A DNA stretch of 47,882 bases from positions 409,488 to 457,369 of the forward strand of contig NZ_SJPX01000003.1 in NCBI RefSeq assembly GCF_007860175.1, in the 5' to 3' direction. The notes below the pieces were generated by a model. The model worked only from the letters and a program-made list of their open reading frames with translations, was not told the DNA's origin and did not search any database. Of the stretch, positions 213 through 47,762 are shown in pieces (position 1 is the stretch's first letter; every line of letters begins with the position of its first letter). The translations under genes were made by a program, and so were the position numbers. The DNA is from Rubripirellula reticaptiva. GTDB lineage: Bacteria > Planctomycetota > Planctomycetia > Pirellulales > Pirellulaceae.

Positions 213-303
213 CGATAACCAAGTGATTCAACGGAGTCGGGCTTGCAGGGTTTTCGCAATGATCACGTCTAATCTCCCGACCCGCTGATCACCAGCGTTA
301 TCG
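213..303 (+). repeat. attC-like site 1
   Basis: R'' CGATAAC, R' GTTATCG; L'' arm CAACGGAGTCGGG with one unpaired A. Closes family B copy 1. Confidence 0.9.
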
Positions 304-334
304 CACTGATTTTGACTGCATCGAACCGCATGCC

Positions 335-691
335 ATGAAGCTGCCAATTCGCGAGCGGATCCCGGAGTCCTTCGTCGCCTACCTTGCCGAGGTTGATCAG
401 TTGATTCGGTGCTCGGATCCGTCGGCCATTACACCTTCAGATGACCTACTGCAATGCGATGACGCCTATGGTGGTCGGCTTGACGATGGATCACTGGACT
501 TTGCATTCACGTTTTTTCCAGAACCATTTGACGATCTTCCATTTCCGCCGCTTTGGTACTTCACTCTTTCAGAAGATCAGATTTCAAAAATCGCTGCTGG
601 AAACCTAACTGATCTGGATATGTGGAGATGCCCTGCCGATTGCGGATTCCGTGGCTCGACACCTGACTACTACTGCTCTCGTTGCAACTAG
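335..691 (+). CDS. Hypothetical protein with C-terminal Cys cluster
   Basis: 118 aa, ATG start 32 bp after the core of site 1; sole gene of its cassette. Acidic, no signal peptide or membrane segment. The last ~20 residues carry four cysteines (CPADCG ... YYCSRC) that look like a zinc knuckle. It lies directly downstream of the family B promoter-like element. Function not recognised. Confidence 0.65.
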   Translation: MKLPIRERIPESFVAYLAEVDQLIRCSDPSAITPSDDLLQCDDAYGGRLDDGSLDFAFTFFPEPFDDLPFPPLWYFTLSEDQISKIAAGNLTDLDMWRCPADCGFRGSTPDYYCSRCN

Positions 692-719
692 CGACGTCAA
701 CAGCTTGGGAACGTCTGGG

Positions 720-809
720 CGATAACCATGGCATTCACACGAAGCACGGCATAAGATACTTACAAATGGAAGCCACATAGGCCGTGCTCGGTGATGCCGG
801 TCGTTCTGC
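720..809 (+). repeat. attC-like site 2
   Basis: R'' CGATAAC, R' GTTCTGC (non-complementary within the site); L'' arm CACGAAGCACGGC. Confidence 0.9.
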
Positions 810-818
810 TACTGAATT

Positions 819-1274
819 ATGAATCTGCATCGCACTTTGATTTGTCTCGTTGCAACGGCTTTTTTGCCTGTAGTAACATCGTGCAATAAACGCAGGGCAC
901 CGACGACACTCAGCAACAACAAGTTCCGGACGGGGGCAGTGACGACTGGAAACAGTCTCGACGGCGATGGATATTTTGTAACGACTGTTCATCGGCCAGA
1001 CGAACCGCCATGGCTTCTCGTGGCAAAGCCGATGCCATATGGAAAGGGAGGACGGATTCACGACCGAATCCTCAACTGATTCGATTACTGTCACAATCGA
1101 CGGACGTGAATACACGCGGGAGCCCGGTGTGTGTTTCGTTGCTCTTGATACTGGCACTAAATACACGTCACAACGATTAACTGTTCCCGGAAACGCAACA
1201 CTCGAAGAACTAAAACAGGTATCGCTGGCAATCGAATTGCCTCAGTTCAAACAGCTAATCGATCCACTTGAAAG
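819..1274 (+). pseudogene. Lipoprotein gene with probable +1 frameshift
   Basis: Frame 1 (819-1079) starts with a lipoprotein signal (hydrophobic LICLVATAFLPVVTSC, lipobox Cys ~22) and stays protein-like to about residue 75 (PPWLLVAKPMPYG). A second frame, open from 1039, continues with convincing sequence (SITVTIDGREYTREPG ...) to the end of the cassette and on through the attC site to 1350. The frames overlap around 1039-1060 near GGAAAGGGAGG. The simplest reading is one ~150-residue lipoprotein broken by an indel; programmed shifting or two overlapping genes are less likely. Confidence 0.55.
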
Positions 1275-1275
1275 A

Positions 1276-1365
1276 GCAGAACCATCCGATGCACCGAAGG
1301 ACCGGGCGTCGCGTATTGACAATGGAAAATCAACTTCCGGTCCTCGGTGATCGGTACCGTTCTGC
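1276..1365 (+). repeat. attC-like site 3
   Basis: R'' GCAGAAC, R' GTTCTGC; L'' arm CACCGAAGGACCGG. Confidence 0.9.
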
Positions 1366-1382
1366 ATGGACCAAATTTGCAC

Positions 1383-1886
1383 ATGGACCTTCGCCCCACA
1401 CTTCAGCCCTCGAAGATCGACGAGGAGCTCGCCGCACGTCTTGCGGAACTTGCCGCAAAGATCGACGGTGCACGCCCCGGCGAATGGGAGGAATGGCTTG
1501 CCGAGTTCAACAATCTCGCGAGCACGTCGATTCCGTTCGGGCACTTTCAGGGAATCTACGGTGGTGAAGACCACATTGATTGGGTACGCCGTATTTTGCA
1601 CGAAGAACAAACAACGCCGGCCGAAGATGTCACACGCGAAGAGCTAATCGAGATTGTTTGTCGCGCCATGCCGGAGAATGGATACGCCGACCATCAAGCG
1701 TACATGGAAATTCTCGACAAGAATGTACCGCGACCCGATGCATCAAATTTGATCTTCTATCCGCCTGACTACGATGCGGCTACCAACACATGGGCTGATG
1801 GTCGTATGATGGGTGAATATGATCCTACGCCCGAACAGATTGTCGATTGGGCATTGCAACCCGATCCAAGAAATGCAGAACAATGA
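1383..1886 (+). CDS. Hypothetical acidic cytoplasmic protein
   Basis: 167 aa from the ATG at 1383; an upstream in-frame ATG at 1347 lies inside the attC site and is less likely. Helical, rich in Glu and Trp (EWEEWLAEF), with no signal or TM. The TGA stop lies in the CAATGA that follows R'' of site 4, so the last residues (NAEQ) are encoded by the recombination site. No family recognised. Confidence 0.65.
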   Translation: MDLRPTLQPSKIDEELAARLAELAAKIDGARPGEWEEWLAEFNNLASTSIPFGHFQGIYGGEDHIDWVRRILHEEQTTPAEDVTREELIEIVCRAMPENGYADHQAYMEILDKNVPRPDASNLIFYPPDYDAATNTWADGRMMGEYDPTPEQIVDWALQPDPRNAEQ

Positions 1887-1965
1887 CATGCACGGGAGGA
1901 CGGCTTGCGGCGTTTGCTGAAATGAATCGTCAACTCTCCGTCCCCCGTGATGTCTGCCGTTCTGT
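1875..1965 (+). repeat. attC-like site 4
   Basis: R'' GCAGAAC, R' GTTCTGT; L'' arm CACGGGAGGACGGC, a body shared with sites 17, 36, 55 and 81. Confidence 0.9.
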
Positions 1966-2010
1966 GACCTAAACAACTGCTCTGCGGCAAACGCAAAAGC
2001 CGCTCGAAAC

Positions 2011-2607
2011 TTGACAACTAACGCAGATGAATCCCTTCGCACGACATTAGCGAAATTCAACCTGACACTGGCGGAGTACGTCATGCTAAATCTCGTGCGT
2101 TACGAGCCGAGGCATGTGAATGATGCTCCCGGCTACGCTCGCGGATTGGTCACGGACACGTCCGTCCCAGTTCCGACCGTTTCCGAATGCAAAGCCGCAA
2201 TACGTACGCTTTGCGACCGGAATCTGGCACGAGTGATTGACCTCGATTCACAACGCGAGATTCGACGCTTCGTTAGCAGTCTCAATTGCATCGGCCCAAC
2301 GGATGGAATTCCTCTCATCGGCCAGTTCGATTACACCATCGACGGTGCGAGTCTTTGTCGCGATGTACTGAATTTCGCGAATTCGGATTTTGGCGACGAT
2401 TACTATTGGCACAATTACGTTTGCTTTATCCGACGACGAAGCCTTACAATCGTCTACACATTTGACTCGGAATGGGCGGACGACAGCATCACATCCTGCG
2501 AACTTGTTCCTGTCAGCGATTGGGAACCAATCGGTATTTGGCGTTCGCAATGGTGGCATGAGATTCCAAGCGGATATAGACGCGAGTGCCTCCCAGACCT
2601 CGACTGA
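2011..2607 (+). CDS. Hypothetical protein, possible winged-helix N-terminus
   Basis: 198 aa with a TTG start (the nearby ATG at 2027 is out of frame). Residues ~10-85 resemble a helix-rich DNA-binding fold (LAEYVMLNLV ... SECKAAIRTLCDRNLARVIDL). The C-terminal part is rich in aromatic residues (DDYYWHNYVCF, WRSQWWHEIPSGYR). No signal or TM. The function is not recognised and the wHTH reading is tentative. Confidence 0.6.
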   Translation: MTTNADESLRTTLAKFNLTLAEYVMLNLVRYEPRHVNDAPGYARGLVTDTSVPVPTVSECKAAIRTLCDRNLARVIDLDSQREIRRFVSSLNCIGPTDGIPLIGQFDYTIDGASLCRDVLNFANSDFGDDYYWHNYVCFIRRRSLTIVYTFDSEWADDSITSCELVPVSDWEPIGIWRSQWWHEIPSGYRRECLPDLD

Positions 2608-2613
2608 AGCAGC

Positions 2614-2703
2614 ACAGAACCATGTCATGCACACGAAGGACCGCGTGACGTTTTTACAAGTGGAAACCACATTGGCGGTCCTCGGTGATGACCGCCGTTA
2701 TCC
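2614..2703 (+). repeat. attC-like site 5
   Basis: R'' ACAGAAC, R' GTTATCC; L'' arm CACGAAGGACCGCG. Confidence 0.9.
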
Positions 2704-3054
2704 GTCTAACACTGATACGGAAAGACATGACCCGCCAGGACGCTATCAACGACCAAGAAGACTAGATGTCATGACACTTGTGACTCTCTTGGTAGCGTGA
2801 GCAGTTGCGCGGACGACATGCAACGGCGAACTGCTGCTGCGGTGATCGTCCGCATTTCACTTTAGAAGATAAAAGGTTTGAAATGCGGACGATCACCTTG
2901 CTATCTTTCGGATGGCAAACCTGATTCTTGGTTCACACACACCGGGCGACGACATGCTCGTGCAGAATCAACTTGATTCACACTTGAATCTAAGACACAA
3001 TACATTTGCCATCGCAACATCGCATGGTGGTTTCTCCCATCGCTAACTACCGAC
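2698..3054 (+). other. Gene-less cassette with long hairpin
   Basis: 357 bp between sites 5 and 6 without a convincing gene on either strand. Open frames here are short, differ in composition from the neighbouring genes and run into attC. Its distinctive content is the perfect inverted repeat at 2841-2897. Confidence 0.7.
2841..2897. repeat. Perfect 19-bp inverted repeat (hairpin)
   Basis: Arms 2841-2859 (starts GGTGATCGTCCGC) and 2879-2897 are exact reverse complements around a 19-nt loop. There is no U-tract on either side, so this is not a typical intrinsic terminator. It could be a structured RNA or a cruciform protein target. Confidence 0.85.
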
Positions 3055-3145
3055 GGATAACAAAACGATGAACCGAAGCGGCGGATTTCCGCGGTTTTGG
3101 GATGGAGAATCCAATCCCGCCACTCGGTTATCGTAGGCGTTATCC
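3055..3145 (+). repeat. attC-like site 6
   Basis: R'' GGATAAC, R' GTTATCC; L'' arm AACCGAAGCGGCGG. Closes the hairpin cassette. Confidence 0.9.
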
Positions 3146-3457
3146 GACTGACTCCCTTAGGTGTCCGGCGTATTTGTTCGCACAAGCGATCATTTCAACG
3201 CTCGAATGCGAATTGGTCGTTCGGCTTTTGCGTTAGTGAGTCGACGCGTCAAATGTTTTGATCCTCCGTTGGCGTTGGCTACAACGTTGGTTGATCGCTG
3301 ACTGATTTCCGTCTTAACGAATGGCGTTTGTCGATGGCACCGAAACGGTTCTGATCCTTCGATGAACGGAATTGCTTGCCGCGTACGTTAGGGCCCGCTA
3401 GACTTTGGCGACTTGAAATCCACTGCCCAACACTCGATCAATGCCCGTCGATAAAAC
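3140..3457 (+). repeat. Gene-less cassette family A, copy 1
   Basis: 318-bp body, the same length as the copies at 9114, 18014, 34809 and 39600. Scattered substitutions do not keep any frame. It shares its first ~100 bp and last ~100 bp with family B in looser form. Followed by the lipoprotein gene at 3571. Confidence 0.9.
3376..3404 (+). promoter_or_regulatory. Sigma70-like promoter of family A copy 1
   Basis: TTGCCG (3376-3381), 17 bp, TAGACT (3399-3404), pointing out of the cassette towards 3571. Confidence 0.5.
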
Positions 3458-3547
3458 GGATAACCATCGGTTGTACCGGAGCGGCGGTGGGCGCGTTGTT
3501 TTGAAATCACGGCACTCGCCGCCGCCCGGTAAACCGCAACGTTATGT
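3458..3547 (+). repeat. attC-like site 7
   Basis: R'' GGATAAC, R' GTTATGT; L'' arm TACCGGAGCGGCGG, typical of family A. Confidence 0.9.
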
Positions 3548-3570
3548 CGCTAAACCATGCGAGGCCCCAA

Positions 3571-4482
3571 ATGCGTTTGATTGCCCTTTCGCTTACTTGC
3601 TGTTTCCTTGGTTTGCTTGTCGGATGCTCCAAGCCTCAACCAAATGGCTTGCGTTCAGTCTCGTCATTAGAAGATGCCTCAGGTCAGGAAGACGCCGCAA
3701 ACGAAAAGCTGTCCGAACAGGCAGGTCGAAATGCAGCAAAGCTGAAATCGCTAATCACCAAAGAAATTGAGTCACTTGGCAATCACGCTTGGGCTGGGTC
3801 GTACTACATGGGCGATGGGCTAGGAGAAAACGTCTCGCTAGTAATATCACCAACCAATGGGTACGTTTTTGAATGGCATGGCTGCATGGGCTTGTATGAT
3901 CGAAATTTCGGGAAAATCAAACGCCAAAATGACCGCCTTCAACTTTCATTCACCTTTCCGAATAATCAACAGGGCTTTCAAGGGATCGCGGGAGAGTTCA
4001 CGCCTGTCTCTTGGGCAAATCGAACTTATTTGATTCCGTCGAATGATCTAGTTGGGTTTTGCAACGACATAAATAGCGGGGCGGAGCCACGCAAACAGGT
4101 TCATGGCAATTACCTACTTCGTGATGGTGATGAATCGAGTCTTGTGACTGGGCATCCTGAGATTCCCGTGAAATTCAAACCATATCTGCTCGACCAACCT
4201 ATCGAGGCAGCAATCATTGAAATTGGAGATGTTACGACTCGCCCAAGTGTTTGTGATTGGAATTTCAAGGACACTGAGGTAATCATAGACTCAGGGACCA
4301 ACGCCGGCGTCCTGCAGGGAATGGAACTATATGTCGTTGCGCCGAATGACGTAGTTGAATCGGTTATAATTCGAAGCGTAGAGAACAACAAATCTATTGG
4401 CGTAATGACTCAGATCGACGACGATGAAACAGCAATCAAAGCCGGCTGGAAACTTTCGACCCGACCACGCTGGAACGACTGA
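3571..4482 (+). CDS. Predicted lipoprotein
   Basis: 303 aa from the ATG at 3571. Signal sequence RLIALSLTCCFLGLLVGC, with a lipobox ending at Cys ~19. An in-frame ATG at 3544 lies inside R' (GTTATGT) and would add nine residues before the signal. The mature part is Asp/Glu/Asn-rich; residues ~215-300 look like a beta-rich domain (VIIDSGTNAGVLQGMELYVV), as in planctomycete proteins that hold a flagellar-assembly-like SAF/beta fold. Likely exported and lipid-anchored; function unknown. Family A copy 1 lies immediately upstream. Confidence 0.8.
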   Translation: MRLIALSLTCCFLGLLVGCSKPQPNGLRSVSSLEDASGQEDAANEKLSEQAGRNAAKLKSLITKEIESLGNHAWAGSYYMGDGLGENVSLVISPTNGYVFEWHGCMGLYDRNFGKIKRQNDRLQLSFTFPNNQQGFQGIAGEFTPVSWANRTYLIPSNDLVGFCNDINSGAEPRKQVHGNYLLRDGDESSLVTGHPEIPVKFKPYLLDQPIEAAIIEIGDVTTRPSVCDWNFKDTEVIIDSGTNAGVLQGMELYVVAPNDVVESVIIRSVENNKSIGVMTQIDDDETAIKAGWKLSTRPRWND

Positions 4483-4492
4483 AAAAATCGCG

Positions 4493-4584
4493 ACATAACA
4501 ATGCGATGCACGCGAAGCCGGACTTGCGCGTGGTTTGGAAATGGATGATCGCTGGTTCCGGCTCGGTGATCGCTGACGTTCCCC
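4493..4584 (+). repeat. attC-like site 8
   Basis: R'' ACATAAC, R' GTTCCCC; L'' arm CACGCGAAGCCGGA, shared with site 91. Confidence 0.9.
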
Positions 4585-4613
4585 GACTGAAAGATTTAAC
4601 GCGACAACCAACG

Positions 4614-5018: not shown

Positions 5019-5027
5019 CGAAGAAGC

Positions 5028-5118
5028 GGGGAACCATCACATGCACCGAAGGACGCGAGTCGAGCGGTTTGGCAATGGAAAATCTTTCGCGCGTCCTCGG
5101 TGATGTGTAACGTTATCC
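5028..5118 (+). repeat. attC-like site 9
   Basis: R'' GGGGAAC, R' GTTATCC; L'' arm CACCGAAGGACGCG, as in site 75. Confidence 0.9.
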
Positions 5119-9030: not shown

Positions 9031-9119
9031 GGGAACCATGACATGCACGGGAGGACGGCTTGCGCGGTTTTTGAAATGGAGAATCTTTCGTCCGTCCCCC
9101 GTGATGTCTACCGTTATCC
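9030..9119 (+). repeat. attC-like site 17
   Basis: R'' AGGGAAC, R' GTTATCC; L'' arm CACGGGAGGACGGC. Confidence 0.9.
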
Positions 9120-9431
9120 GACATACTCCCTCAGGTGTCCGGCGTATTTCTTCGCACAAGCGATCACTTCAACCTTCGATTGCGAATTGGTCGTTCGGCT
9201 TTTGCGTTAGTGAATCGACGCGTCAAACGTTTTGATCCTCCGTTGGCGTTGGCTGCAACGTTGGTTGATCGCTGACTGACTGCGGTCTTTACGGTTGGCG
9301 TTTGCCGATGGCATCACAACGGTTCCGATCCTTCGATGAACGGAATTGCTTGCCTGGGACTTTAGGGCCCGCTAGACTCTGGCGACTTGAAACCCACTGC
9401 CCAACACTCGATCAATGCCCGTCGATAAAGC
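9114..9431 (+). repeat. Gene-less cassette family A, copy 2
   Basis: 318-bp body. The most divergent copy around the -35 (TTGCCTGGGAC). Followed by the secreted-protein gene at 9540. Confidence 0.9.
9350..9378 (+). promoter_or_regulatory. Sigma70-like promoter of family A copy 2
   Basis: TTGCCT (9350-9355), 17 bp, TAGACT (9373-9378). Confidence 0.5.
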
Positions 9432-9521
9432 GGATAACCATCGGTTGTACCGGAGCGGCGGTGGTCACGTCCTGTCGAAATCACGGCCTTCGCCGCCGCC
9501 CGGTAAACCGTAACGTTATCC
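9432..9521 (+). repeat. attC-like site 18
   Basis: R'' GGATAAC, R' GTTATCC; L'' arm TACCGGAGCGGCGG. Confidence 0.9.
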
Positions 9522-15512: not shown

Positions 15513-15602
15513 GCGGAACAATGCCATGAACCCAAGTCGCCGAGCCTGTCCAACTTACTAACACAATCATTCGCGGCGACTGGGTTATGGCCGCCGTTAT
15601 TC
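15513..15602 (+). repeat. attC-like site 29
   Basis: R'' GCGGAAC, R' GTTATTC; L'' arm AACCCAAGTCGCCG; loop as in site 28. Confidence 0.85.
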
Positions 15603-15615
15603 GGCTTGAATCACC

Positions 15616-16041
15616 GTGAACCCCTACCAGCCGCCAGTAACGGAAAACAAGCGAAGTTCGACTGGCGAGCTCGTGACGTCTCGTCGCGGGCCTGCTTTGT
15701 ACATCATCGCCGCAGGGCTTGTTGGCGGCATCTGCTCGGTACCACTCCTAGTGATGCGAAGCCCGCTTGCTCTCCTTACGCCACTCGCAGGTTGCGTTGT
15801 CGGCGGACTAATTTTTCGTTCCGTTTCTCAACACTGGCCGCACGATCCGACTGTCCGGTCTCGTCAGACTCTGTTTTCGCTGCTCGCACTCACGGTGCTG
15901 CCCATCGCACTTGTCATCACCGCGAGGATCGAAGCGTATCGCTTGCCGTTTGGAATAATTGGTTTGTCGATTGGCAGTGCTGTCTCAGCCGGTATAATGG
16001 TGAGCGGTACTCGGCGTCTGAAGAGATACACGTGCGAATAA
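15616..16041 (+). CDS. Four-TM membrane protein, NPYQPP N-terminus
   Basis: 141 aa with a GTG start giving MNPYQPP, the typical planctomycete opening. TM segments: LYIIAAGLVGGICSVPLLV, LALLTPLAGCVVGGLIF, TLFSLLALTVLPIALVI and FGIIGLSIGSAVSAGIMV. The stop lies in R'' GAATAAC. Function unknown. Confidence 0.7.
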   Translation: MNPYQPPVTENKRSSTGELVTSRRGPALYIIAAGLVGGICSVPLLVMRSPLALLTPLAGCVVGGLIFRSVSQHWPHDPTVRSRQTLFSLLALTVLPIALVITARIEAYRLPFGIIGLSIGSAVSAGIMVSGTRRLKRYTCE

Positions 16042-16129
16042 CAAGGCGGATGCACCGCAGGCCGTGTGGCGACCGGAATTTTGCGGATCCAAGTCTTTCT
16101 CACGGCCGCAGTGATCCTATTCGTTACCC
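16036..16129 (+). repeat. attC-like site 30
   Basis: R'' GAATAAC, R' GTTACCC; L'' arm CACCGCAGGCCGTG; the longest site (94 bp). Confidence 0.85.
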
Positions 16130-17930: not shown

Positions 17931-18019
17931 GGCGAACCATGTGGTGCACCGGAGGACTCAAAAACGCGTTTCCTACTGGTGGCCTTTTCGTTCGTCCCCG
18001 GTGACCACCAACGTTATCC
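17931..18019 (+). repeat. attC-like site 33
   Basis: R'' GGCGAAC, R' GTTATCC; L'' arm CACCGGAGGAC. Confidence 0.9.
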
Positions 18020-18331
18020 GACTGACTCCCTCAGGTGTCCGGCGTATTTGTTCGCACAAGCGATCATTTCAACGCTCGAATGCGAATTTGTCGTTCGGCT
18101 TTTGCGTTAATGAATCGACGCGTCAAACGTTTTGATCCTCCGTTGGCGTTGGCTGCAACGCTGGTTGATCGCTGACTGATTTCCGTCTCAACGCCTGGCG
18201 TTTGTCGATGGCACCGCAACGGTTCTGATCCTTCGATGAACGGAATTGGTTGCCGCGTACTTTAGGCCCCGCTAGACTTTGGCGACTTGAAATCCACTGC
18301 CCAACACTCGACCAATGCCCGTCGATAAAGC
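18014..18331 (+). repeat. Gene-less cassette family A, copy 3
   Basis: 318-bp body, followed by the small membrane-protein gene at 18533. Confidence 0.9.
18250..18278 (+). promoter_or_regulatory. Sigma70-like promoter of family A copy 3
   Basis: TTGCCG (18250-18255), 17 bp, TAGACT (18273-18278). Confidence 0.5.
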
Positions 18332-18421
18332 GGATAACCATCGGTTGTACCGGAGCGGCGGTGGTCGCGCTGTTTTGAAATCACGGCACTCGCCGCCGCC
18401 CGGTAAACCGTAACGTTATCC
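18332..18421 (+). repeat. attC-like site 34
   Basis: R'' GGATAAC, R' GTTATCC; L'' arm TACCGGAGCGGCGG. Confidence 0.9.
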
Positions 18422-22005: not shown

Positions 22006-22096
22006 AAATAACCAAGTCGTGAACCGGAGCCGCGTGCTGCGGCGTCTGGTCGGGGCAAACTCTCCCGACGCGACCCGGTTACGACCACCGTTCGCC
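22006..22096 (+). repeat. attC-like site 41
   Basis: R'' AAATAAC, R' GTTCGCC; L'' arm AACCGGAGCCGCGT. Confidence 0.9.
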
Positions 22097-22115
22097 AACA
22101 AACAGAGGATTCACT

Positions 22116-22544
22116 GTGTTCCGTACCACGCTGTTACTGTCACTTGCCTTCGCGTGCGGTTGCGGACAATCTGACATTACGCCCATGGATTTTTCTTCGA
22201 CGATCAGCGCGGATGCCGAGCCATCGCAATCGGTCAGCGCTATCGACTTTGACGAAGCAGGCGGGGTTGTTTCCCTGGATACCCGGATTCCACCCCGCCA
22301 AAGACAAAGTTTTGGTATCGGCCAGGGATCGGTCACGCTCGAGACGATCGAAGTGAAGGACAGTCATTTGACATTCTTGTACACTCCGGAGATTGAAGGC
22401 GGATACACGACCTACGAGTGCACCGTTCCAGTCTCTGACTCACCAATTACGATCAAGGTGAATAGGGACGGAACACCGGGCGTGACGTCCTTCGACCTTA
22501 CAGAGTGTCGCGTCGTGAAATCTGGAAATTTGCACTGGGAATGA
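22116..22544 (+). CDS. Predicted lipoprotein
   Basis: 142 aa with a GTG start. Short signal FRTTLLLSLAFACGC with a Cys at ~14-16 as the likely lipidation site. The mature part is acidic and beta-rich (SVTLETIEVKDSHLTFLYTPEIEGGYTTYECTV). Preceded by a gene-less promoter cassette. Function unknown. Confidence 0.65.
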   Translation: MFRTTLLLSLAFACGCGQSDITPMDFSSTISADAEPSQSVSAIDFDEAGGVVSLDTRIPPRQRQSFGIGQGSVTLETIEVKDSHLTFLYTPEIEGGYTTYECTVPVSDSPITIKVNRDGTPGVTSFDLTECRVVKSGNLHWE

Positions 22545-22549
22545 AACTC

Positions 22550-22639
22550 GGCGAACAATCGCATGCAACGGAGCCGGCGGTCGGGTCGGTTTTGAAATCA
22601 AAGCGTCTCGCGCCGGCCCGCTGATGCGTGTCGTTATTT
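22550..22639 (+). repeat. attC-like site 42
   Basis: R'' GGCGAAC, R' GTTATTT; L'' arm CAACGGAGCCGGCG. Confidence 0.9.
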
Positions 22640-26000: not shown

Positions 26001-26091
26001 GGCGAACCATCCGATGCAACCGAGTCGCGGTAGCCGGGCGTTTTCAAATGGAAGATCAACCGCCGCGACCGGCTGATCGGTACCGTTACCC
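26001..26091 (+). repeat. attC-like site 48
   Basis: R'' GGCGAAC, R' GTTACCC; L'' arm CAACCGAGTCGCGG. Confidence 0.9.
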
Positions 26092-26123
26092 GACTAGATC
26101 AAATCGGTTTCCGACACAGACCA

Positions 26124-26474
26124 ATGCGCAAACAAGCTCCGGCCGAACGACGATTGCGCCGAATCAAATCTGTTGCCGCGCTCATTATGTTCGGATGTAT
26201 TGTCATTTCCGTTTTCGGAACGGTTCACGGAATGGTGCGGAGCTTCAACGCAATTGCACTGGGGGGATCGGCACCGATTGAAGCGGACCTTGCCGAATCA
26301 ATTCAATGGTCGATGACACTCACACGCATCTTAATGCCTGCCACGTTTATTGCTGCGATTGTTTGGGTCGGTAGCTGGTACAAACTTCGAACGCCGCTTA
26401 CCATCGGTATACGTTCCGGTCGATTGGCCGCAGATGATTCGGGCCACCAACACAAACAGCAAAACGACGGGTAA
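26124..26474 (+). CDS. Two-TM protein, distantly TolQ/ExbB-like (copy 1)
   Basis: 116 aa. Basic N-terminus (RKQAPAERRLRR), TM1 SVAALIMFGCIVISVFG, then GGSAPIEADLAESIQWSMTLTRILMPATFIAAIVWVG. The LAxSIxxxMxxT stretch before TM2 recalls the MotA/TolQ/ExbB channel fold, but the protein is far shorter than those. The assignment is weak. The whole cassette is present again at 45777-46245. Confidence 0.65.
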   Translation: MRKQAPAERRLRRIKSVAALIMFGCIVISVFGTVHGMVRSFNAIALGGSAPIEADLAESIQWSMTLTRILMPATFIAAIVWVGSWYKLRTPLTIGIRSGRLAADDSGHQHKQQNDG

Positions 26475-26560
26475 CCATCGCGTGAACCGGAGGACGCGAG
26501 CTAAGCGATTTGGCAGTTAGAGACTTCCCCACGCGTCCCCGGTTACGCGTACCGTTATCC
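26469..26560 (+). repeat. attC-like site 49
   Basis: R'' GGGTAAC, R' GTTATCC; L'' arm AACCGGAGGACGCG; same body as site 89, which follows the duplicate gene. Confidence 0.9.
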
Positions 26561-34724: not shown

Positions 34725-34814
34725 AGATAACAATGTGATGCACGGGAGTTGCGGGCAGCCCGTTTGGTGGAATCAACGTCACGGGCCGCAACCCCGTGAT
34801 CACTAGCGTTATCC
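34725..34814 (+). repeat. attC-like site 65
   Basis: R'' AGATAAC, R' GTTATCC; L'' arm CACGGGAGTTGCGG. Confidence 0.9.
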
Positions 34815-35126
34815 GACATACTCCCTCTGGTGTCCGGCGTATTTCTTCGCACAAGCGATCACTTCAACCTTCGATTGCGAATTGGTCGTTCGGCTTTTGC
34901 GTTAGTGAATCGACGCGTCAAATGTTTTGATCCTCCGTTGGCGTTGGCTGCAACGTTGGTTGATCGCTGACTGATTTCCGTCTTAACGACTGGCGTTTGT
35001 CGATGGCACCGAAACGGTTCTGATCCTTCGATGAACGGAATTGGTTGCCGCGTACTTTAGGCCCCGCTAGACTTTGGCGACTTGAAATCCACTGCCCAAC
35101 ACTCGATCAATGCCCGTCGATAAAAC
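34809..35126 (+). repeat. Gene-less cassette family A, copy 4
   Basis: 318-bp body; followed by the HNH nuclease gene at 35286. Confidence 0.9.
35045..35073 (+). promoter_or_regulatory. Sigma70-like promoter of family A copy 4
   Basis: TTGCCG (35045-35050), 17 bp, TAGACT (35068-35073). Confidence 0.5.
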
Positions 35127-35216
35127 GGATAACCATCGGTTGTACCGGAGCGGCGGTGGTACCGCTGTTTTGAAATCACGGCACTCGCCGCCGCCCGGTA
35201 AACCGTAACGTTACAT
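35127..35216 (+). repeat. attC-like site 66
   Basis: R'' GGATAAC, R' GTTACAT; L'' arm TACCGGAGCGGCGG. Confidence 0.9.
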
Positions 35217-35285
35217 GCCTCAGACGAACCCGCTCCGACCTTCGCGTGTCGTTGATACGACTGGTCACATTTCTGGCGAGGCGAC

Positions 35286-36089
35286 ATGACTCAATATTGC
35301 TGCATCTTCTGCAAGTCTGACGACCGCGAATTCACATCGCGTGAACACGTCGTTCCCGAATCTCTCGGCAATTCTGAGCACATACTACCGCGCGGCATCG
35401 TGTGCGATTGGTGCAACAACTACTTCGCGAGAAAGGTCGAAGCTCCGGTTCTAAATTCCGCGTTTTTCACGCAAGCACGCAATCGAACAGGAATCCCGAA
35501 CAAGCGGCGGAACATTCCGCCAATTGACGTCCTGTCATATCCTGTTGCGCTTCATTTGCAACTTGCAGCGTCGACTGGTGGTGACCGATCAATCTATGCT
35601 GCGAATGACTCGGACAACGATGCCTTCGTTGATATGATCACTAAACGAAAACGATTCTCGGTCGTATTTCCGGTTCCGAAATTGCCCTCCGGCCGTTTGT
35701 TTGCTCGATTTCTCGCCATGATGGCGCTCGAAGCATGGGCAAAGACAATCCTCGATGCGAACGGTGACCTTCACGGCGATCTCATCGACAAACCGGAACT
35801 GGACGAAATCCGTGGCTTCGCTCGCTTCGGCACCGGCGCTGACGCATGGGTTTACGCGTCGCGGCGGCTCTATGCCGAGGATCATCACTTCGTTGATGAC
35901 GATGGCTCCACCTTCGATGTGCTTCACGAATACACACTGCTCTATACTGACGCGAACGAACTGTACTTCGTGATTGCAATTCTTGGCATTGAATTTGCGA
36001 TCAACCTAGGTGGCCCGGAAATCGACGGTTACAATGACTGGCTGAAATCGAATGCAGGCCGAAGTCCTCTGTACCCAAACGGCATGTAA
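35286..36089 (+). CDS. HNH endonuclease family protein
   Basis: 267 aa, ATG behind GGCGAGGCGAC. N-terminal HNH module: CIFCKSDDREFTSREHVVPESLGN ... LPRGIVCDWCNNYFARKVE, with CxxC zinc pairs, the catalytic His in EHVVPESLG and the Asn/His finger CDxCNN. The remaining ~200 residues are unassigned. Such proteins cut DNA or sit in defence/mobile contexts; the target is unknown. Directly behind family A copy 4. TAA in R'' ATGTAAC. Confidence 0.85.
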   Translation: MTQYCCIFCKSDDREFTSREHVVPESLGNSEHILPRGIVCDWCNNYFARKVEAPVLNSAFFTQARNRTGIPNKRRNIPPIDVLSYPVALHLQLAASTGGDRSIYAANDSDNDAFVDMITKRKRFSVVFPVPKLPSGRLFARFLAMMALEAWAKTILDANGDLHGDLIDKPELDEIRGFARFGTGADAWVYASRRLYAEDHHFVDDDGSTFDVLHEYTLLYTDANELYFVIAILGIEFAINLGGPEIDGYNDWLKSNAGRSPLYPNGM

Positions 36090-36172
36090 CAAATCGGTGA
36101 ACGGGAGGGCTCGGCGCAGTCGGTCCTGAAGTCAAGTCCTCTCCTCGCCCCCCGTTACCGCAAGCGTTCGCA
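36084..36172 (+). repeat. attC-like site 67
   Basis: R'' ATGTAAC, R' GTTCGCA; L'' arm AACGGGAGGGCTCGG. Confidence 0.88.
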
Positions 36173-39515: not shown

Positions 39516-39605
39516 GCGGAACCAAGAATTGCACCGAAGGACGCGGAGCCGTTTTTCTCCAGATCAATGTTCACTGCGCGTCCTCGGTGAATTCAAACGT
39601 TATCC
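39516..39605 (+). repeat. attC-like site 75
   Basis: R'' GCGGAAC, R' GTTATCC; L'' arm CACCGAAGGACGCG. Confidence 0.9.
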
Positions 39606-39917
39606 GACATACTCCCTCAGGTGTCCGGCGTATTTCTTCGCACAAGCGATCACTTCAACCTTCGATTGCGAATTGGTCGTTCGGCTTTTGCGTTAGTGCA
39701 TCGACGCGTCAAACGTTTTGATCCTCCTTTGGCGTTGGCTGCAACGCTGGTTGATCGCTGACTGATTTCCGTCTTAACGACTGGCGTTTGTCGATGGCAC
39801 CGCAACGGTTCTGATCCTTCGATGAACGGAATTGCTTGTCGCGTACTTTAGGACCCGCTAGACTTTGGCGACTTGAAATCCACTGCCCAACACTCGATCA
39901 ATGCCCGTCGATAAAAC
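39600..39917 (+). repeat. Gene-less cassette family A, copy 5
   Basis: 318-bp body. Unlike the other copies, the next four genes run towards it, so its promoter would give antisense transcripts of them. Confidence 0.9.
39836..39864 (+). promoter_or_regulatory. Sigma70-like promoter of family A copy 5
   Basis: TTGTCG (39836-39841), 17 bp, TAGACT (39859-39864); -35 weakened relative to TTGCCG. Confidence 0.4.
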
Positions 39918-40007
39918 GGATAACCATCGGTTGTACCGGAGCGGCGGTGGTACCGCTGTTTTGAAATCACGGCCTTCGCCGCCGCCCGGTAAACCGTAAC
40001 GTTATGC
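39918..40007 (+). repeat. attC-like site 76
   Basis: R'' GGATAAC, R' GTTATGC; L'' arm TACCGGAGCGGCGG. Confidence 0.9.
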
Positions 40008-42125: not shown

Positions 42126-42210
42126 CAATGACATGCACGGGAGGACGGCTTGCGGCGTTTTTCGCAATGGATCATTCACTCTCCGTCCCCCGTGATGTCT
42201 GCCGTTACGC
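42120..42210 (+). repeat. attC-like site 81
   Basis: R'' GGGTAAC, R' GTTACGC; L'' arm CACGGGAGGACGGC. Confidence 0.9.
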
Positions 42211-42220
42211 CTTTAAACCC

Positions 42221-42646
42221 ATGAATGACGATCGCAAGTCGAAATTGATAGCACGCGATAAGGCCATGCGTCAGGCACGCGACAAAATGCTTCGGCTTGT
42301 GTTTCAATACTTGCCGACCGTCGGATTTACTAAAGCTGGGGACGGACACTTTGTTTCGCAAACCGAAAATCAAACCAACCACATTGGGTTTCAAAAACAT
42401 ACGAGCGGACGCGAAGTTCGTGTCATGTCTCATGTCACGATGGACGGATCAACCGGGACATCGATATTGGGGCCACGCAGCGACGCCTACACACGCCCCA
42501 ACCCGCCAAACGGAATTCGCTACAATCTGAGCTGGTCCACAAGAGACGAAGATATAGCCCGCTGTGCCGACGAGTATTGTCGCTTTATCAATGACGTTTT
42601 GATCGGCTGGTTCGCGAATCCTGTTTCACCAGAAGGGATGGCGTAA
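42221..42646 (+). CDS. DUF4304-like protein
   Basis: 141 aa from the ATG at 42221. MLRLVFQYLPTVGFTKAGDGHFVSQTENQTNHIGFQKHTSGREVRV follows the DUF4304 pattern (GFxKxGxxFxR ... IGFQxxxxGxxF). The C-terminal half includes RYNLSWSTRDEDIARCADEYCRFINDVLIGWF. DUF4304 proteins are uncharacterised and often near SUKH-type genes. Pattern call only. Confidence 0.55.
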   Translation: MNDDRKSKLIARDKAMRQARDKMLRLVFQYLPTVGFTKAGDGHFVSQTENQTNHIGFQKHTSGREVRVMSHVTMDGSTGTSILGPRSDAYTRPNPPNGIRYNLSWSTRDEDIARCADEYCRFINDVLIGWFANPVSPEGMA

Positions 42647-42730
42647 CAATCGCATGCAACGGAGCCGGCGGTCGGGTCGGTTTTGAAGTCAACGCATCTC
42701 GCGCCGGCCCGCTGATGCGAAGCGTTCCCC
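42641..42730 (+). repeat. attC-like site 82
   Basis: R'' GCGTAAC, R' GTTCCCC; L'' arm CAACGGAGCCGGCG. Confidence 0.9.
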
Positions 42731-43191: not shown

Positions 43192-43197
43192 AGACGC

Positions 43198-43288
43198 GGG
43201 GAACCATTGCGTGCACCGGAGCACGCGAGCGGTCCGGTTTTGAAATGGAAAATCTTTCGCGCGTGCCCGGTGACGCGTGCCGTTATCG
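43198..43288 (+). repeat. attC-like site 83
   Basis: R'' GGGGAAC, R' GTTATCG; L'' arm CACCGGAGCACGCG. Confidence 0.9.
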
Positions 43289-43295
43289 CAATATA

Positions 43296-43739
43296 ATGAT
43301 CCGCTTCCTCCTGGTCTTCGTCGTGCTTTCGCTTAACGGGTGCCATCGAACCGTCGTCGATCGCGAAATCGTCGTTTCTCCAGATGGACAGTCCCGTCTT
43401 CTGCTTCGATACAACACTCGGGACAACAAGGGCTTCGATTTTAACGACTTAGTACTCGAAACTCAGTCTGGAATCGATTGGGAATACGACTCGACCATAT
43501 GGAGCGGCGACGCTCACGTTGCGCCCGGCGTGAAACGCTGGGTGTCGTCTCTCGATTCTCTTGGAGACGATCGACAAACGGCGATCATTAAGATTGCTAC
43601 AATGGGGCCACGTGACGCGGTCGGTAAATCAACGGTCGAATACTCGTGGGTGCGATGGGACCTAGCCGCGAACGCTAAGATTCAAACTCTACATGTTTGC
43701 GATTCGCCGTTCGATGCACTTCCGCCAGACAAGCGATAA
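43296..43739 (+). CDS. Predicted lipoprotein
   Basis: 147 aa, ATG 8 bp after R'. Signal IRFLLVFVVLSLNGC with lipobox LNGC (Cys 16). Mature part beta-rich (REIVVSPDGQSRLLLRYNTRDNKGFDFNDLVLETQSGIDWEY). Stop TAA in R'' CGATAAC. Function unknown. Confidence 0.75.
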   Translation: MIRFLLVFVVLSLNGCHRTVVDREIVVSPDGQSRLLLRYNTRDNKGFDFNDLVLETQSGIDWEYDSTIWSGDAHVAPGVKRWVSSLDSLGDDRQTAIIKIATMGPRDAVGKSTVEYSWVRWDLAANAKIQTLHVCDSPFDALPPDKR

Positions 43740-43823
43740 CCATCGCATGCAACGGAGCCGGGCTTGCGCGTCTCTACAAATGGAACATCAACCGTCCCGG
43801 CCCGCTGATGCGTAACGTTCGTC
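43734..43823 (+). repeat. attC-like site 84
   Basis: R'' CGATAAC, R' GTTCGTC; L'' arm CAACGGAGCCGGGC. Confidence 0.9.
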
Positions 43824-43862
43824 GAATTAAGGTCACCAGTAATTGAGACGCACGCTGACTAT

Positions 43863-44264
43863 TTGAAACGCAAGATTCCGCTCGTTGCACTGCCTGGCGT
43901 TACGTCTGGCTTGGTGTGTCGCGTGAGCAAGTGTACAGACCCACACAACGCGGACTTCAGCACGATCAAAGGCCACGACTTTCGTGTCGCCAACAGTTTC
44001 GCATTGTCCGAATCTGATCTGCGTTCGGTTTGGGATCGCTTGCTAAATTGCAAGCCAACAGGTGAGTACAAGCCCAAAAGGGTGTCGGCGGATCTCGCGA
44101 TACAATTCTTCGCGGGGGATGACTGGCTGGGGGCAGCCGAGATAAAATGGGCCAATAACTCGCTGCTCGTACTGCTGCGCGACTACTTTTCTGTGCCGAT
44201 ATTTGATGCGGATTCAGAAGACGCACAGGCGATTAAACGTGACTTTGATCAACGTCTGCTTTAG
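43863..44264 (+). CDS. Hypothetical protein
   Basis: 133 aa with a TTG start (no in-frame ATG nearby). Mixed alpha/beta: LPGVTSGLVCRVSKC, LSESDLRSVWDRLLNCKPTGEYKPKRVSADLAIQFFAGDDW, NNSLLVLLRDYFSVPIFDADSEDAQAIKRDFDQ. No signal convincingly present. Not recognised. Confidence 0.6.
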   Translation: MKRKIPLVALPGVTSGLVCRVSKCTDPHNADFSTIKGHDFRVANSFALSESDLRSVWDRLLNCKPTGEYKPKRVSADLAIQFFAGDDWLGAAEIKWANNSLLVLLRDYFSVPIFDADSEDAQAIKRDFDQRLL

Positions 44265-44276
44265 GCTCAAGATCTC

Positions 44277-44365
44277 GACGAACCATGCGTTGGACCGAAG
44301 CACCGCATGTCGTCTTTGCAAATGGAAACCACATTGGCGGTGCTCGGTCAACGCCGCCGTTCCCC
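44277..44365 (+). repeat. attC-like site 85
   Basis: R'' GACGAAC, R' GTTCCCC; L'' arm GACCGAAGCACCGC. Confidence 0.88.
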
Positions 44366-44376
44366 GACTAAAGTCC

Positions 44377-44823
44377 ATGTACGGCGACCTCTCGCACTTT
44401 AACGCGAAACTTCCGTCAGACGTTGCGTGCGAATTGCTAGACCCGGCATTGGAACTCGGGTTCCACGCGGCTCGCTGGCCCACTGACGCATTTCCCGACT
44501 TTCGCTCGTTCGTCCGTTTCACATTTGGCTATTCTTCGGCACTTCAGCCCTACATCTGTGATCCCACGCGTGACGATCTGCAAGGATGGTTTCGACCTGA
44601 CGCGAGCGACATCGAACGCGCAGACAATCTCCTCGACCGTAACGCGACCACCAACACAGAAGTTCGTGAATGGATGCGCACGCAATACCCACTGCTCTCA
44701 ATACCTTGGCTCATATCGGGCCTGCATGCTAAGCTGCTTTCTATGACCGATGGCGACTGGCCCGAAATGCTCGCATACGATACTGACGGGTATGTCACGG
44801 CTTTTGTCGCTGACCTTACCTAG
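44377..44823 (+). CDS. Hypothetical cytoplasmic protein
   Basis: 148 aa, ATG 12 bp after R'. Phe/Trp-rich alpha/beta protein (WPTDAFPDFRSFVRFTFGYSSALQPYICDPTRDDLQGWF) ending DTDGYVTAFVADLT. No family recognised. Confidence 0.65.
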   Translation: MYGDLSHFNAKLPSDVACELLDPALELGFHAARWPTDAFPDFRSFVRFTFGYSSALQPYICDPTRDDLQGWFRPDASDIERADNLLDRNATTNTEVREWMRTQYPLLSIPWLISGLHAKLLSMTDGDWPEMLAYDTDGYVTAFVADLT

Positions 44824-44837
44824 TGCAAACAGACGGC

Positions 44838-44927
44838 GGGGAACCAAACGATGCAACCGAGCGGCGAAATCGGGCGTTTTGAAGTGGATGATCAACCGTC
44901 GCCGCCGGCTGATCGTAGACGTTCCCC
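44838..44927 (+). repeat. attC-like site 86
   Basis: R'' GGGGAAC, R' GTTCCCC; L'' arm CAACCGAGCGGCGA. Confidence 0.9.
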
Positions 44928-44939
44928 GACTGAAGATTC

Positions 44940-45341
44940 ATGACACAACCTGTCCACAGCTGCATGACGAAGGCGATCATCGCAGATGGTGACCAGCTGG
45001 AGACTGGGCCGCATTGGATCACCTCACGACGCGCTCGACTTCGCCTTTTCGACGACCACTTGATTTGCGGCGACTGGAACGTCCGCTACGACGACATTCG
45101 GGAAGCGGTGCTCGCATCATTTCGTTCGCCGATCCTTCGCATTCCTGGCTACGTCCTTTCTGCGCGAACTGATACTCACACGTACCACTTCGGCCTAAAC
45201 GGATGGCGGTACTGGAAGGGTGAATTGCCCTTTCCTGTAACCCGAACCAATACTCGACTTCGCATGTCGTGGATTTCAATCGCGGCGAGGGCTATACTCA
45301 TCGGCTACGTCGCGTACGCATTGTGGCGATGGGCCACGTAA
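44940..45341 (+). CDS. PH-like domain protein with C-terminal TM
   Basis: 133 aa, ATG. Residues ~25-100 resemble a bacterial PH-like beta-barrel (WITSRRARLRLFDDHLICGDWNVRYDDIREAVLASFRSPILRIPGYVLSARTDTHTYHFGLNG), followed by one membrane helix (WISIAARAILIGYVAYALWRW). Probably membrane-tethered with the domain in the cytoplasm. Domain call from pattern only. Confidence 0.6.
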   Translation: MTQPVHSCMTKAIIADGDQLETGPHWITSRRARLRLFDDHLICGDWNVRYDDIREAVLASFRSPILRIPGYVLSARTDTHTYHFGLNGWRYWKGELPFPVTRTNTRLRMSWISIAARAILIGYVAYALWRWAT

Positions 45342-45360
45342 CCTCGATCACCAATGCGGC

Positions 45361-45450
45361 GGGGAACCATGCGATGCAACGGAGTCGGGCTTGCAAGGTT
45401 TCACGAATGGAAAGTCAATCGTCCCGACCCGCTGATCGCTACCGTTCCCC
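45361..45450 (+). repeat. attC-like site 87
   Basis: R'' GGGGAAC, R' GTTCCCC; L'' arm CAACGGAGTCGGGC. Confidence 0.9.
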
Positions 45451-45691
45451 GACTGAAATTGGCTGCTCCATCGAGAACCGTGACACCCAACGCCTGTCTC
45501 CCCTCAGGTGATCGGTGCGCTGTCTCCAGGCTGTGATTGACAGTGCCCGGTCGACGCCCGAAGAAAACCAACGCCTGCAGATCCATGCTCGACTCCAGGC
45601 CGCTGATTACCCAACGCCTGTCTCCATGCTGCTACAATCCAACGCACGAAACCAGCGCCCGCAAACGGTGCGCGGTCTCCCGGCCCGAAGC
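45445..45691 (+). other. Gene-less cassette with repeats and extended -10
   Basis: 247 bp. Degenerate ~60-bp repeats, including an exact 17-bp direct repeat ACCCAACGCCTGTCTCC at 45485-45501 and 45609-45625. No gene. Extended -10 TGCTACAAT near the end. Confidence 0.65.
45630..45638 (+). promoter_or_regulatory. Extended -10 element
   Basis: TGC-TACAAT (TGn plus 5/6 -10), no good -35 at 17 bp. Faces the duplicated TolQ-like gene at 45815. Confidence 0.4.
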
Positions 45692-45782
45692 GGGGAACCA
45701 TCCAATGCACCCGAGCGGCGAAGTCGGGCGTTTTGACAATGGACAATTTCTCGTCGCCGCCGGGTGATTGGTAACGTTACCC
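45692..45782 (+). repeat. attC-like site 88
   Basis: R'' GGGGAAC, R' GTTACCC; L'' arm CACCCGAGCGGCGA. Confidence 0.9.
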
Positions 45783-46245
45783 GACTAGATCAAATCGGTT
45801 TCCGACACAGACCAATGCGCAAACAAGCTCCGGCCGAACGACGATTGCGCCGAATCAAATCTGTTGCCGCGCTCATTATGTTCGGATGTATTGTCATTTC
45901 CGTTTTCGGAACGGTTCACGGAATGGTGCGGAGCTTCAACGCAATTGCACTGGGGGGATCGGCACCGATTGAAGCGGACCTTGCCGAATCAATTCAATGG
46001 TCGATGACACTCACACGCATCTTAATGCCTGCCACGTTTATTGCTGCGATTGTTTGGGTCGGTAGCTGGTACAAACTTCGAACGCCGCTTACCATCGGTA
46101 TACGTTCCGGTCGATTGGCCGCAGATGATTCGGGCCACCAACACAAACAGCAAAACGACGGGTAACCATCGCGTGAACCGGAGGACGCGAGCTAAGCGAT
46201 TTGGCAGTTAGAGACTTCCCCACGCGTCCCCGGTTACGCGTACCG
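45777..46245 (+). repeat. Duplicate cassette (copy of 26086-26554)
   Basis: 469 bp that read identical to 26086-26554, with both ends exactly at the G/TT crossover point. Different cassettes flank each copy. Confidence 0.9.
45815..46165 (+). CDS. Two-TM protein, distantly TolQ/ExbB-like (copy 2)
   Basis: 116 aa, identical in sequence to the protein at 26124-26474. Preceded by a gene-less cassette here, by a membrane-protein cassette there, so the two copies may be expressed differently. Confidence 0.65.
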   Translation: MRKQAPAERRLRRIKSVAALIMFGCIVISVFGTVHGMVRSFNAIALGGSAPIEADLAESIQWSMTLTRILMPATFIAAIVWVGSWYKLRTPLTIGIRSGRLAADDSGHQHKQQNDG

Positions 46246-46251
46246 TTCCCC
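46160..46251 (+). repeat. attC-like site 89
   Basis: R'' GGGTAAC, R' GTTCCCC; L'' arm AACCGGAGGACGCG; identical to site 49 up to the G of R'. Confidence 0.9.
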
Positions 46252-46282
46252 GACTGAAAGATACTCTGCAACGTTACACGAT

Positions 46283-46546
46283 ATGGATCGACAACGCATG
46301 CTTCTACGCACTCTCGCTGCGTCACCAGACATCGGTCGTGAATCGGGTTTTGTCGTTGATGGGCACGACCGTTTAACTGCCGCCGTTGAATCAGACGCAC
46401 GCCTCATTGTCGAGGCAAAATACGCCGACGAGTGGAACGCGAGTGGGCTGATCCGCCGGTGGAAGTTGCAACGCAAAATGGACGCTGAAATTTCAGTGCT
46501 CGTTGCCGAAATGATGCCAGACGTTTCGCCGGACGCTTTGTTCTGA
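46283..46546 (+). CDS. Small hypothetical protein
   Basis: 87 aa, ATG 31 bp after R'. Charged helical protein (RLTAAVESDARLIVEAKYADEWNASGLIRRWKLQRKMDAEISVLVAEMMPD). Cytoplasmic. Not recognised. Confidence 0.6.
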   Translation: MDRQRMLLRTLAASPDIGRESGFVVDGHDRLTAAVESDARLIVEAKYADEWNASGLIRRWKLQRKMDAEISVLVAEMMPDVSPDALF

Positions 46547-46619
46547 TGATCTACTCGTTAAAAACTGGTCCTGCTCGATGCGGGTAGAGAACTGACGCCC
46601 ATACACGACCCTAAGCGGC

Positions 46620-46709
46620 GGGGAACCAAACGATGCAACCGAGCGGCGAAGTCGGGCGTTTTGAAATTGTTGATCTGCCGTCGCCGCCGGCTGATCGTCA
46701 CCGTTATCC
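46620..46709 (+). repeat. attC-like site 90
   Basis: R'' GGGGAAC, R' GTTATCC; L'' arm CAACCGAGCGGCGA. Confidence 0.9.
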
Positions 46710-46720
46710 CGCTAAGCCAA

Positions 46721-47272
46721 ATGATTGCCGAACTCAAAAAACTCGCCCAGTTGACGAATTCGATTTTGAGGCCTCCTGCCTCCGACGCGACCTTGGAGCT
46801 ACTCAAATCCAGCTATAGCGAAATTCCTGCATTGCTTGTCGAATTGCTTTCATTTGCAGATGGGGAACAAGATTCAAGCTTCAAATCAAATGGAATAATC
46901 GCTTTTGAGGCTTTTATTAGTGCGGAAGAGATTGCAAGAGAGCATGATTTTGTCACATCCTATGAGTACGATGACCTAAATCAATTCGTAGAATGCGATC
47001 GGATCAACCAGCGCCCAAACTGGCATTCTGGCCTGATCCCCATTTCGTTTGGCTATGACCTTCACTGTGTTTGCATCGACATGAATCCTGGCCCTGCCGG
47101 ACGCGTTGGTCAGATACTTGGGCTCAGGCCAATTTGTGGTAATATCCAAGTGATTGCTAACGACCTCGAGGCTTTGATCCAGAAAACGTTAGCTATTTAT
47201 GACGCACGATCTGTTGACGTCAGTGACCCGAATTGCCTTTGTTTGACACTTGACGACTTTCCGCCCCAGTAG
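46721..47272 (+). CDS. SMI1/KNR4 (SUKH) family protein
   Basis: 183 aa from the ATG at 46721. Clear SUKH layout: RPPASDATLELLKSSYSEIPALLVELLSFADGEQ, FISAEEIAREHDF, then the diagnostic NWHSGLIPISFGYDLHCVCIDMNPGPAGRVGQILGL and a final NDLEALIQKTL. Yeast Smi1/Knr4 relatives; bacterial members are typically immunity proteins against polymorphic toxins. No partner toxin is in the cassette or its neighbours. Codon use is more AT-rich than in nearby genes. Confidence 0.85.
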   Translation: MIAELKKLAQLTNSILRPPASDATLELLKSSYSEIPALLVELLSFADGEQDSSFKSNGIIAFEAFISAEEIAREHDFVTSYEYDDLNQFVECDRINQRPNWHSGLIPISFGYDLHCVCIDMNPGPAGRVGQILGLRPICGNIQVIANDLEALIQKTLAIYDARSVDVSDPNCLCLTLDDFPPQ

Positions 47273-47285
47273 CCAGCATATCGCG

Positions 47286-47376
47286 GGATAACAAAACGAT
47301 GCACGCGAAGCCGGACTTGCGCGTGCCAATTGAAGCAATGATTTCCGTTCCGGCTCGGTGATCGTAACCGTTATCG
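47286..47376 (+). repeat. attC-like site 91
   Basis: R'' GGATAAC, R' GTTATCG; L'' arm CACGCGAAGCCGGA. Confidence 0.9.
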
Positions 47377-47673
47377 GCACTTAGTAGCGTTGGAAGATTG
47401 TGCTCGAATTACTCATGCCCGGCTGTCCTTGGTTCTAGCTTGTCCTCTGATCGCCGGCGCAACGCTTGCATCGAACTCAACTCTAATGCCGTTGGGAGCT
47501 CTTGGGGGCCGACAATGGTACGTTCTTCGGCAACACTTCTTGTCGCACGCCGGACGAGAGCCACGCTCGAATATAGTCCTCCGAAAATTAGTTGCTCGAT
47601 CCAGAGACGGCCGATACATTCAGCAAGACGCAACACCGGCGTACCGAAAAAATGGCCCCCGATAAAACAACTC
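47371..47673 (+). other. Gene-less cassette with promoter
   Basis: 303 bp. A TTG-initiated 91-codon frame (47390-47665) and overlapping frames are open on both strands, but none looks protein-like. Ends with TTGCTC-N17-TACATT. Confidence 0.5.
47592..47620 (+). promoter_or_regulatory. Sigma70-like promoter
   Basis: TTGCTC (47592-47597), 17 bp, TACATT (47615-47620), facing the gene at 47798. Confidence 0.4.
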
Positions 47674-47762
47674 CGATAACCATCGGATGCACCGGAGTAC
47701 TCAAAAGTCTTTTCTCTGATGGTCCATCGTTCGTTCGTACCCGGTGATCCGAACTGTTATCC
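47674..47762 (+). repeat. attC-like site 92
   Basis: R'' CGATAAC, R' GTTATCC; L'' arm CACCGGAGTACTC. Confidence 0.9.

Follow-up and report, generated by a model that had tools for sequence, protein, structure and literature searches.

In the integrons described in the passages of the literature drawn on here, an attC recombination site includes bases derived from the downstream cassette, the crossover falling between G and TT (PMC3518468), and the variable 4 bp of R' in an array are not necessarily complementary to R'' (PMC5371416). Recombination proceeds by a bottom-strand mechanism, and self-pairing of 9-11 consecutive bases is reported for most gene cassettes (PMC2727003). Excerpts of two further papers show that intI genes have been reported from planctomycetes (PMC2426708) and that planctomycete attC sites have been modelled before (PMC8352920). 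We analysed an array of such cassettes in the planctomycete Rubripirellula reticaptiva, in a stretch of 47,882 nt, called the window, that spans C3:409488 to C3:457369 (C3 being contig NZ_SJPX01000003.1). Each of its 91 cassettes starts with a sequence complementary to its own end. Self-matching cassette ends are already known from integrons; this array shows them unusually clearly and with a clean internal control.

The window holds 92 attC sites, all on the forward strand, found by cmsearch with a worst E-value of 5.8e-11. The covariance model used (R1) was trained on 59 of 64 window sites from a motif scan and covers only the stretch from AAC to GTT; the variable R bases are left out of it and therefore cannot bias the finding of sites. 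A second, independent hairpin finder returned three extra sites. AAC stands at the left end and GTT at the right end of all 92, as expected of repeated attC sites with conserved ends in an integron array. Each site is an imperfect hairpin in which the unpaired bases, two in 77 sites and three in 15, all lie on the R''-L'' arm, with none on the other. The cassettes and the sites used as examples below are as follows.

298..47680, + strand: 91 complete cassettes between the 92 attC sites, placed by cmsearch and the facing 7-mers, each running from the TT of one R' box to the G of the next
213..303, + strand: first attC of the window, R'' at 213-219 and R' at 297-303
720..809, + strand: second attC, with three mismatches between its own R'' (CGATAAC) and its own R' (GTTCTGC)
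803..1282, + strand: cassette 2 including both boxes, R' GTTCTGC at 803 and R'' GCAGAAC at 1276
15596..16042, + strand: cassette 29 including both boxes, R' GTTATTC at 15596 and R'' GAATAAC at 16036
35210..36090, + strand: cassette 66 including both boxes, R' GTTACAT at 35210 and R'' ATGTAAC at 36084
42204..42647, + strand: cassette 81 including both boxes, R' GTTACGC at 42204 and R'' GCGTAAC at 42641
47674..47762, + strand: last attC of the window, R'' at 47674-47680 and R' at 47756-47762

In 91 of 91 cassettes the 7-mers at the start and at the end are reverse complements of each other, without a single mismatch. A first-pass annotation of this DNA had proposed exactly this, and the four pairs that it gave as examples (eight 7-mers, in cassettes 2, 29, 66 and 81) are all correctly placed. 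When the cassette ends were shuffled 20,000 times, a mean of 10.3 matches was obtained (standard deviation 2.8, maximum 23). Inside one site, R'' and R' match in only 14 of 92 cases, which is the level of chance (10.6 +/- 2.8, with 15% of shuffles reaching 14); the annotation was thus right that the two boxes of a site, such as the second, often disagree. With this within-site comparison taken as lag 0, the other lags from -5 to +6 gave 11-13 matches in 86-92 comparisons. Facing ends therefore all match, within-site and neighbouring pairs match at the rate of chance, and neither many cassette-wise mismatches nor equal matching within sites was seen. The match might be thought an artefact of the site-finding method or of a common core type, and the commonest of the facing-end 4-mers, ATCC, does account for 23 of the 91 cassettes. 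Yet there are 22 different types, the shuffles never exceeded 23 matches, the variable bases lie outside the model, and the independent hairpin finder recovered 91 of the 92 sites exactly. We give this explanation practically no credence.

All seven bases first described do pair, but the complementary arm is really of eight, since pairing extends to the eighth base in 90 of 91 (46.0 +/- 3.6 in shuffles). A single cassette departs from this rule.

22091..22633, + strand: cassette 41, with R' beginning at 22090, the sole cassette of the 91 whose eighth base is unpaired

The ninth base pairs in 31 of 91 cassettes, which is weak, yet above chance (14.2 +/- 2.9), and the tenth in 32 of 91, which is chance (32.1 +/- 3.3). 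The arm consists of GTT plus five bases, with 37 different 5-mers. We modelled the bottom-strand hairpin of each cassette with DNA energy parameters, in the form expected in an excised circle and in the form found in the array. The circle form was more stable in 82 cassettes, equally stable in nine and less stable in none (n = 91), with a mean gain of 4.1 kcal/mol and on average 7.97 paired positions among the outer eight, against 4.56 in the array form. This gain is a consequence of the facing match, and so restates it in terms of energy rather than proving it independently.

An R' box in the array takes its G from one cassette and its TT plus five bases from the cassette that follows. Because the box is shared by two cassettes, its match with the R'' of its own site is left to chance. 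When the integron integrase, IntI, excises a cassette as a circle, the leading bases of the cassette (TT plus five) would be joined to the G at its other end. This would rebuild an R' box able to pair along its whole length with the R'' of the cassette's own attC, in the excised circle only. The folded bottom strand of this attC would then be the substrate of integration, a chemistry that we take from other integrons. The moving would presumably be done by an IntI of this genome, and recent mobility together with selection on the circle hairpin may keep the ends matched. We are highly confident in this reading as a whole, namely that cassettes travel as circles that close R' on their own R''.

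Two loci in the genome, which totals 7.85 Mb in 13 contigs, exceed the cut-off of the integron-integrase model TIGR02249: C6:4616-5563 and C3:75770-76711. Each has a few attC sites beside it, and both proteins match TIGR02249 along the model's length. The nearest solved structure to the C6 integrase is 2a3v, named IntI4. Among titled sequences, the closest to this integrase come from Stieleria tagensis and Roseiconus nitratireducens (best-segment identity 59-64%), both of which we take to be planctomycetes of the family Pirellulaceae. The C6 integrase (L041:4256-5788) has 510 amino acids, of which the model covers only 121-436, leaving about 120 extra residues before and 74 after; its start codon was chosen mechanically. 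The second IntI has as its neighbour a shorter stretch that resembles an integrase and contains two stop codons (C3:75243-76711, L003/L004); it may be a remnant.

Four pairs of cassettes that are 100% identical occur at different places on C3 (the small contigs were left out of this comparison). In three of them the shared flank consists of CG upstream and then of two, two and three bases downstream. One of the four pairs lies wholly inside the window.

26086..26554, + strand: cassette 48, 469 bp, 100% identical to cassette 88, with different neighbours; only CG upstream and TT downstream are shared beyond the unit
45777..46245, + strand: cassette 88, the identical partner of cassette 48

Because the identity of repeated cassettes stops at CG|TT, the crossover can be placed within CGTT. 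The first-pass annotation had read the facing ends as the trace of circular cassettes with a crossover between G and TT. The facing match fits this, but these sequences place the crossover only within the invariant CGTT, and its exact position comes from the passages of PMC3518468 on other integrons. That cassettes move as units is supported, and appears more directly in the identical pairs than in the hairpin energies. The annotation's further view, that cassettes were shuffled independently of their neighbours, holds for the R types, where neighbours match at chance, and for the repeated cassettes, but their movement is neither observed nor dated. A family of 402-bp cassettes has 15 copies in the genome stretches analysed, 90.5-100% identical and always of the same R type, five of them in the window.

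3140-3541, 9114-9515, 18014-18415, 34809-35210 and 39600-40001: copies of the 402-bp cassette family

The rest of the genome provides the control. The genome-wide count covers the array stretches analysed; the genome scan scored 150 of 3,202 candidates, which leaves room for further sites. The final set of 281 sites gives 270 same-strand neighbouring pairs, two of which lie across 100-N gaps and were set aside, leaving 268. It includes the site at L045 19934-20000 and excludes a partial hit at L031 2555-2609; the analyses of homologues, identical pairs and hairpin energies used the set without the L045 site, which leaves the window cassettes unaffected. Facing 7-mers match in 237 of the 268 pairs. 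The match is complete in the window (91/91) and in eight other short arrays or contig pieces taken together (70/70), while seven pairs are mismatched in the sites of the same scaffold beyond the window (58/65 matched) and 24 in the array at the end of C3 (18/42 matched). The difference from the window is significant in both cases (Fisher test, p = 0.0018 for the sites beyond it and 2e-15 for the end of C3), although the counts are not all independent, since identical cassettes recur among the small contigs and on C3. The window is exactly one sequence contig, flanked at both ends by 100-N scaffold gaps (C3:409388-409487 and C3:457370-457469); the order of the pieces is that of the scaffold and uncertain beyond the window, and we therefore draw no age gradient from it. 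Taken in reading direction, the array at the end of C3 has more mismatches in its second half (16/21) than in its first (8/21). Among the 31 mismatched pairs, 19 differ by a single substitution, and some substitutions hit GTT or AAC themselves. The eight cassettes with at least three mismatches are longer than the 237 perfect ones (median 930 versus 535 bp, p = 0.0013); rescanning these eight gave one weak hairpin, in one cassette. The long mismatched cassettes may thus be fused cassettes.

Since the match is lost elsewhere in the same genome, the flawless match in the window points to recent mobility, to selection, or to both. Youth alone might be sufficient: the cassettes could be recent arrivals whose ends matched from the start and in which mutations have not yet had time to build up, with no continuing selection, which differs from the reading given above only in what keeps the match. 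Other arrays of the genome have decayed, mostly through single substitutions. This fits the idea of youth, because it shows that the match is lost with time; so does the presence of several cassettes as 100% identical copies. Against it, divergent homologous cassettes keep their ends. Of 41 groups of homologous cassettes, seven lack a self-matched pair. In 12 groups a self-matched pair falls below 85% protein identity, and 11 of these 12 keep both 5-mers. The argument is weak, as the bases just outside are also the same in 8 to 12 of the 12. We consider youth alone a possible explanation, if a somewhat doubtful one.

The homologues bear also on a second alternative, templated correction, in which repair uses one arm of the folded circle attC as the template for the other, and mismatches are erased without selection. 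The absence of mismatches in 91 cassettes is what this process would yield, and one homologous pair differs at both ends in concert (ACCC and CGCC, at 43% protein identity). But this is the only concerted difference among 125 homologous pairs: 111 are self-matched with the same 4-mer, one is self-matched with different 4-mers, and 13 include a mismatch. Homologous pairs are too few to judge compensatory change, and we think templated correction highly improbable. A broader idea is that the circle stage keeps the match, whether by selection on the hairpin or by repair of the arms, and that decay is a clock that runs in each cassette since its last mobility and tells living arrays from relics within a single genome. 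We regard this as unlikely.

Relatives show the same pattern. We searched 18 genomes grouped with the window's family, in 40 stretches of at most 20 kb around 20 IntI places (two stretches have only 709 and 1,078 bases), and the hairpin finder placed clustered sites in 17 of the 40. Facing pairs matched at four or more bases in 159 of 215 cases, against 46 of 239 within sites; of these facing matches, 24 extend over exactly four bases, 93 over five and 42 over more. Three cassettes of the R. reticaptiva genome (C3a+140, C12-5 and C3a+158) have homologues in three other genomes of the family (L134, L141 and L138, respectively), with 68-79% protein identity and the same 5-base R types. Homologues with the same R types in other genomes offer hints of exchange between genera. 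In other phyla, six of 80 loci had at least four sites at the strict threshold, and 15 had clusters at a looser one. At the latter, L120 (titled as a Granulosicoccaceae metagenome-assembled genome) matched at five or more bases in 7 of 7 pairs, L069 in 1 of 5, L099 in 0 of 2 and L118 in 0 of 2, a sample too thin for comparing phyla.

The case for cassettes travelling as circles thus draws on the facing match relative to shuffles, the arm of eight bases, the chance level within sites, the unpaired bases on one arm, the two IntI loci and the structure 2a3v, and on the CG|TT bounds in three of the four identical pairs, the decay elsewhere in the genome and the same pattern in relatives. Four points weigh against it. 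The evidence consists of sequences, and no recombination was observed. No intI (TIGR02249) lies in the window, and none is listed for C3:309-589 kb. The fourth identical pair shares more flank than needed: 5 bases upstream of the unit and at least 12 downstream, where the two following cassettes start in the same way. Finally, 56 of the 215 facing pairs in relatives are unmatched, through false sites, missed sites and decay together. Even so, sequence data with a decayed control in the same genome support the view that cassettes travel as circles. The state of the facing-end match, intact or broken, also gives an easy indication of whether a given cassette or array has probably stayed mobile.

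An open reading frame of at least 50 codons is present in 86 of the 91 window cassettes (the others being 6, 65, 68, 69 and 77), and the longest one is on the minus strand in 14 of these 86. Some cassettes may therefore carry no gene, or one in reverse. Among the 73 of these 86 proteins that were scanned, HNH_5, MshEN, DUF4303 and SMI1_KNR4 were each found in one (Pfam at 1e-5), and one matched the PADLOC model PDC-M40A at 1.3e-11. The window has no Rfam family at the gathering threshold and no tRNA. Sites directly to the left of the window lie on the minus strand, and C6 has a convergent flip. Either could be taken for an inversion, but both flips sit on 100-N scaffold gaps and the C6 sides are 121-bp inverted copies that are 100% identical; we treated both as assembly artefacts, which the flip left of the window probably is.

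Our results support reading the window as one section of a large chromosomal array of integron cassettes, in a genome that carries two IntI genes. Since no intI adjoins the array, we classify it as a cassette array and not as a complete integron. An attC cluster without a neighbouring integrase is known as a CALIN, and the absence of intI from the window and from the list for C3:309-589 kb is shared with these clusters. The window differs from them in that the genome has two IntI loci, while the scaffold gaps leave the real joins of the window's contig open. The resemblance to chromosomal integrons (superintegrons) lies in attC sites with R'', L'', L' and R' and unpaired bases on one arm, in short and mostly unknown open reading frames, in a single cassette direction and in the presence of IntI genes in the genome. 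A first difference concerns the first unpaired base, which on the top strand is C in better-known attC sites and G in 80 of the 92 sites here (the second is A in 82 of 92, and relatives vary). A second one concerns the R' boxes of the window, which read GTT[A/C].. (of 91 boxes, 57 have A and 34 have C at the first variable base, and the second is T, C or G) and depart from the consensus GTTRRRY quoted in passages of PMC3518468 and PMC12901181; they keep the invariant GTT, and the consensus is that of other integrons, no requirement for attC. Our literature search was limited to open-licence papers, with the early papers on 59-base elements by Hall, Stokes and colleagues outside it, and the portions retrieved contained nothing on a cassette-wise count or on mismatch as a mark of decay. 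An arm longer than seven bases is not new, since the part of PMC2727003 that we cite reports longer pairing. Most of the cassettes described there pair over 9-11 bases, whereas the arm of the window ends sharply after eight, with a weak ninth.

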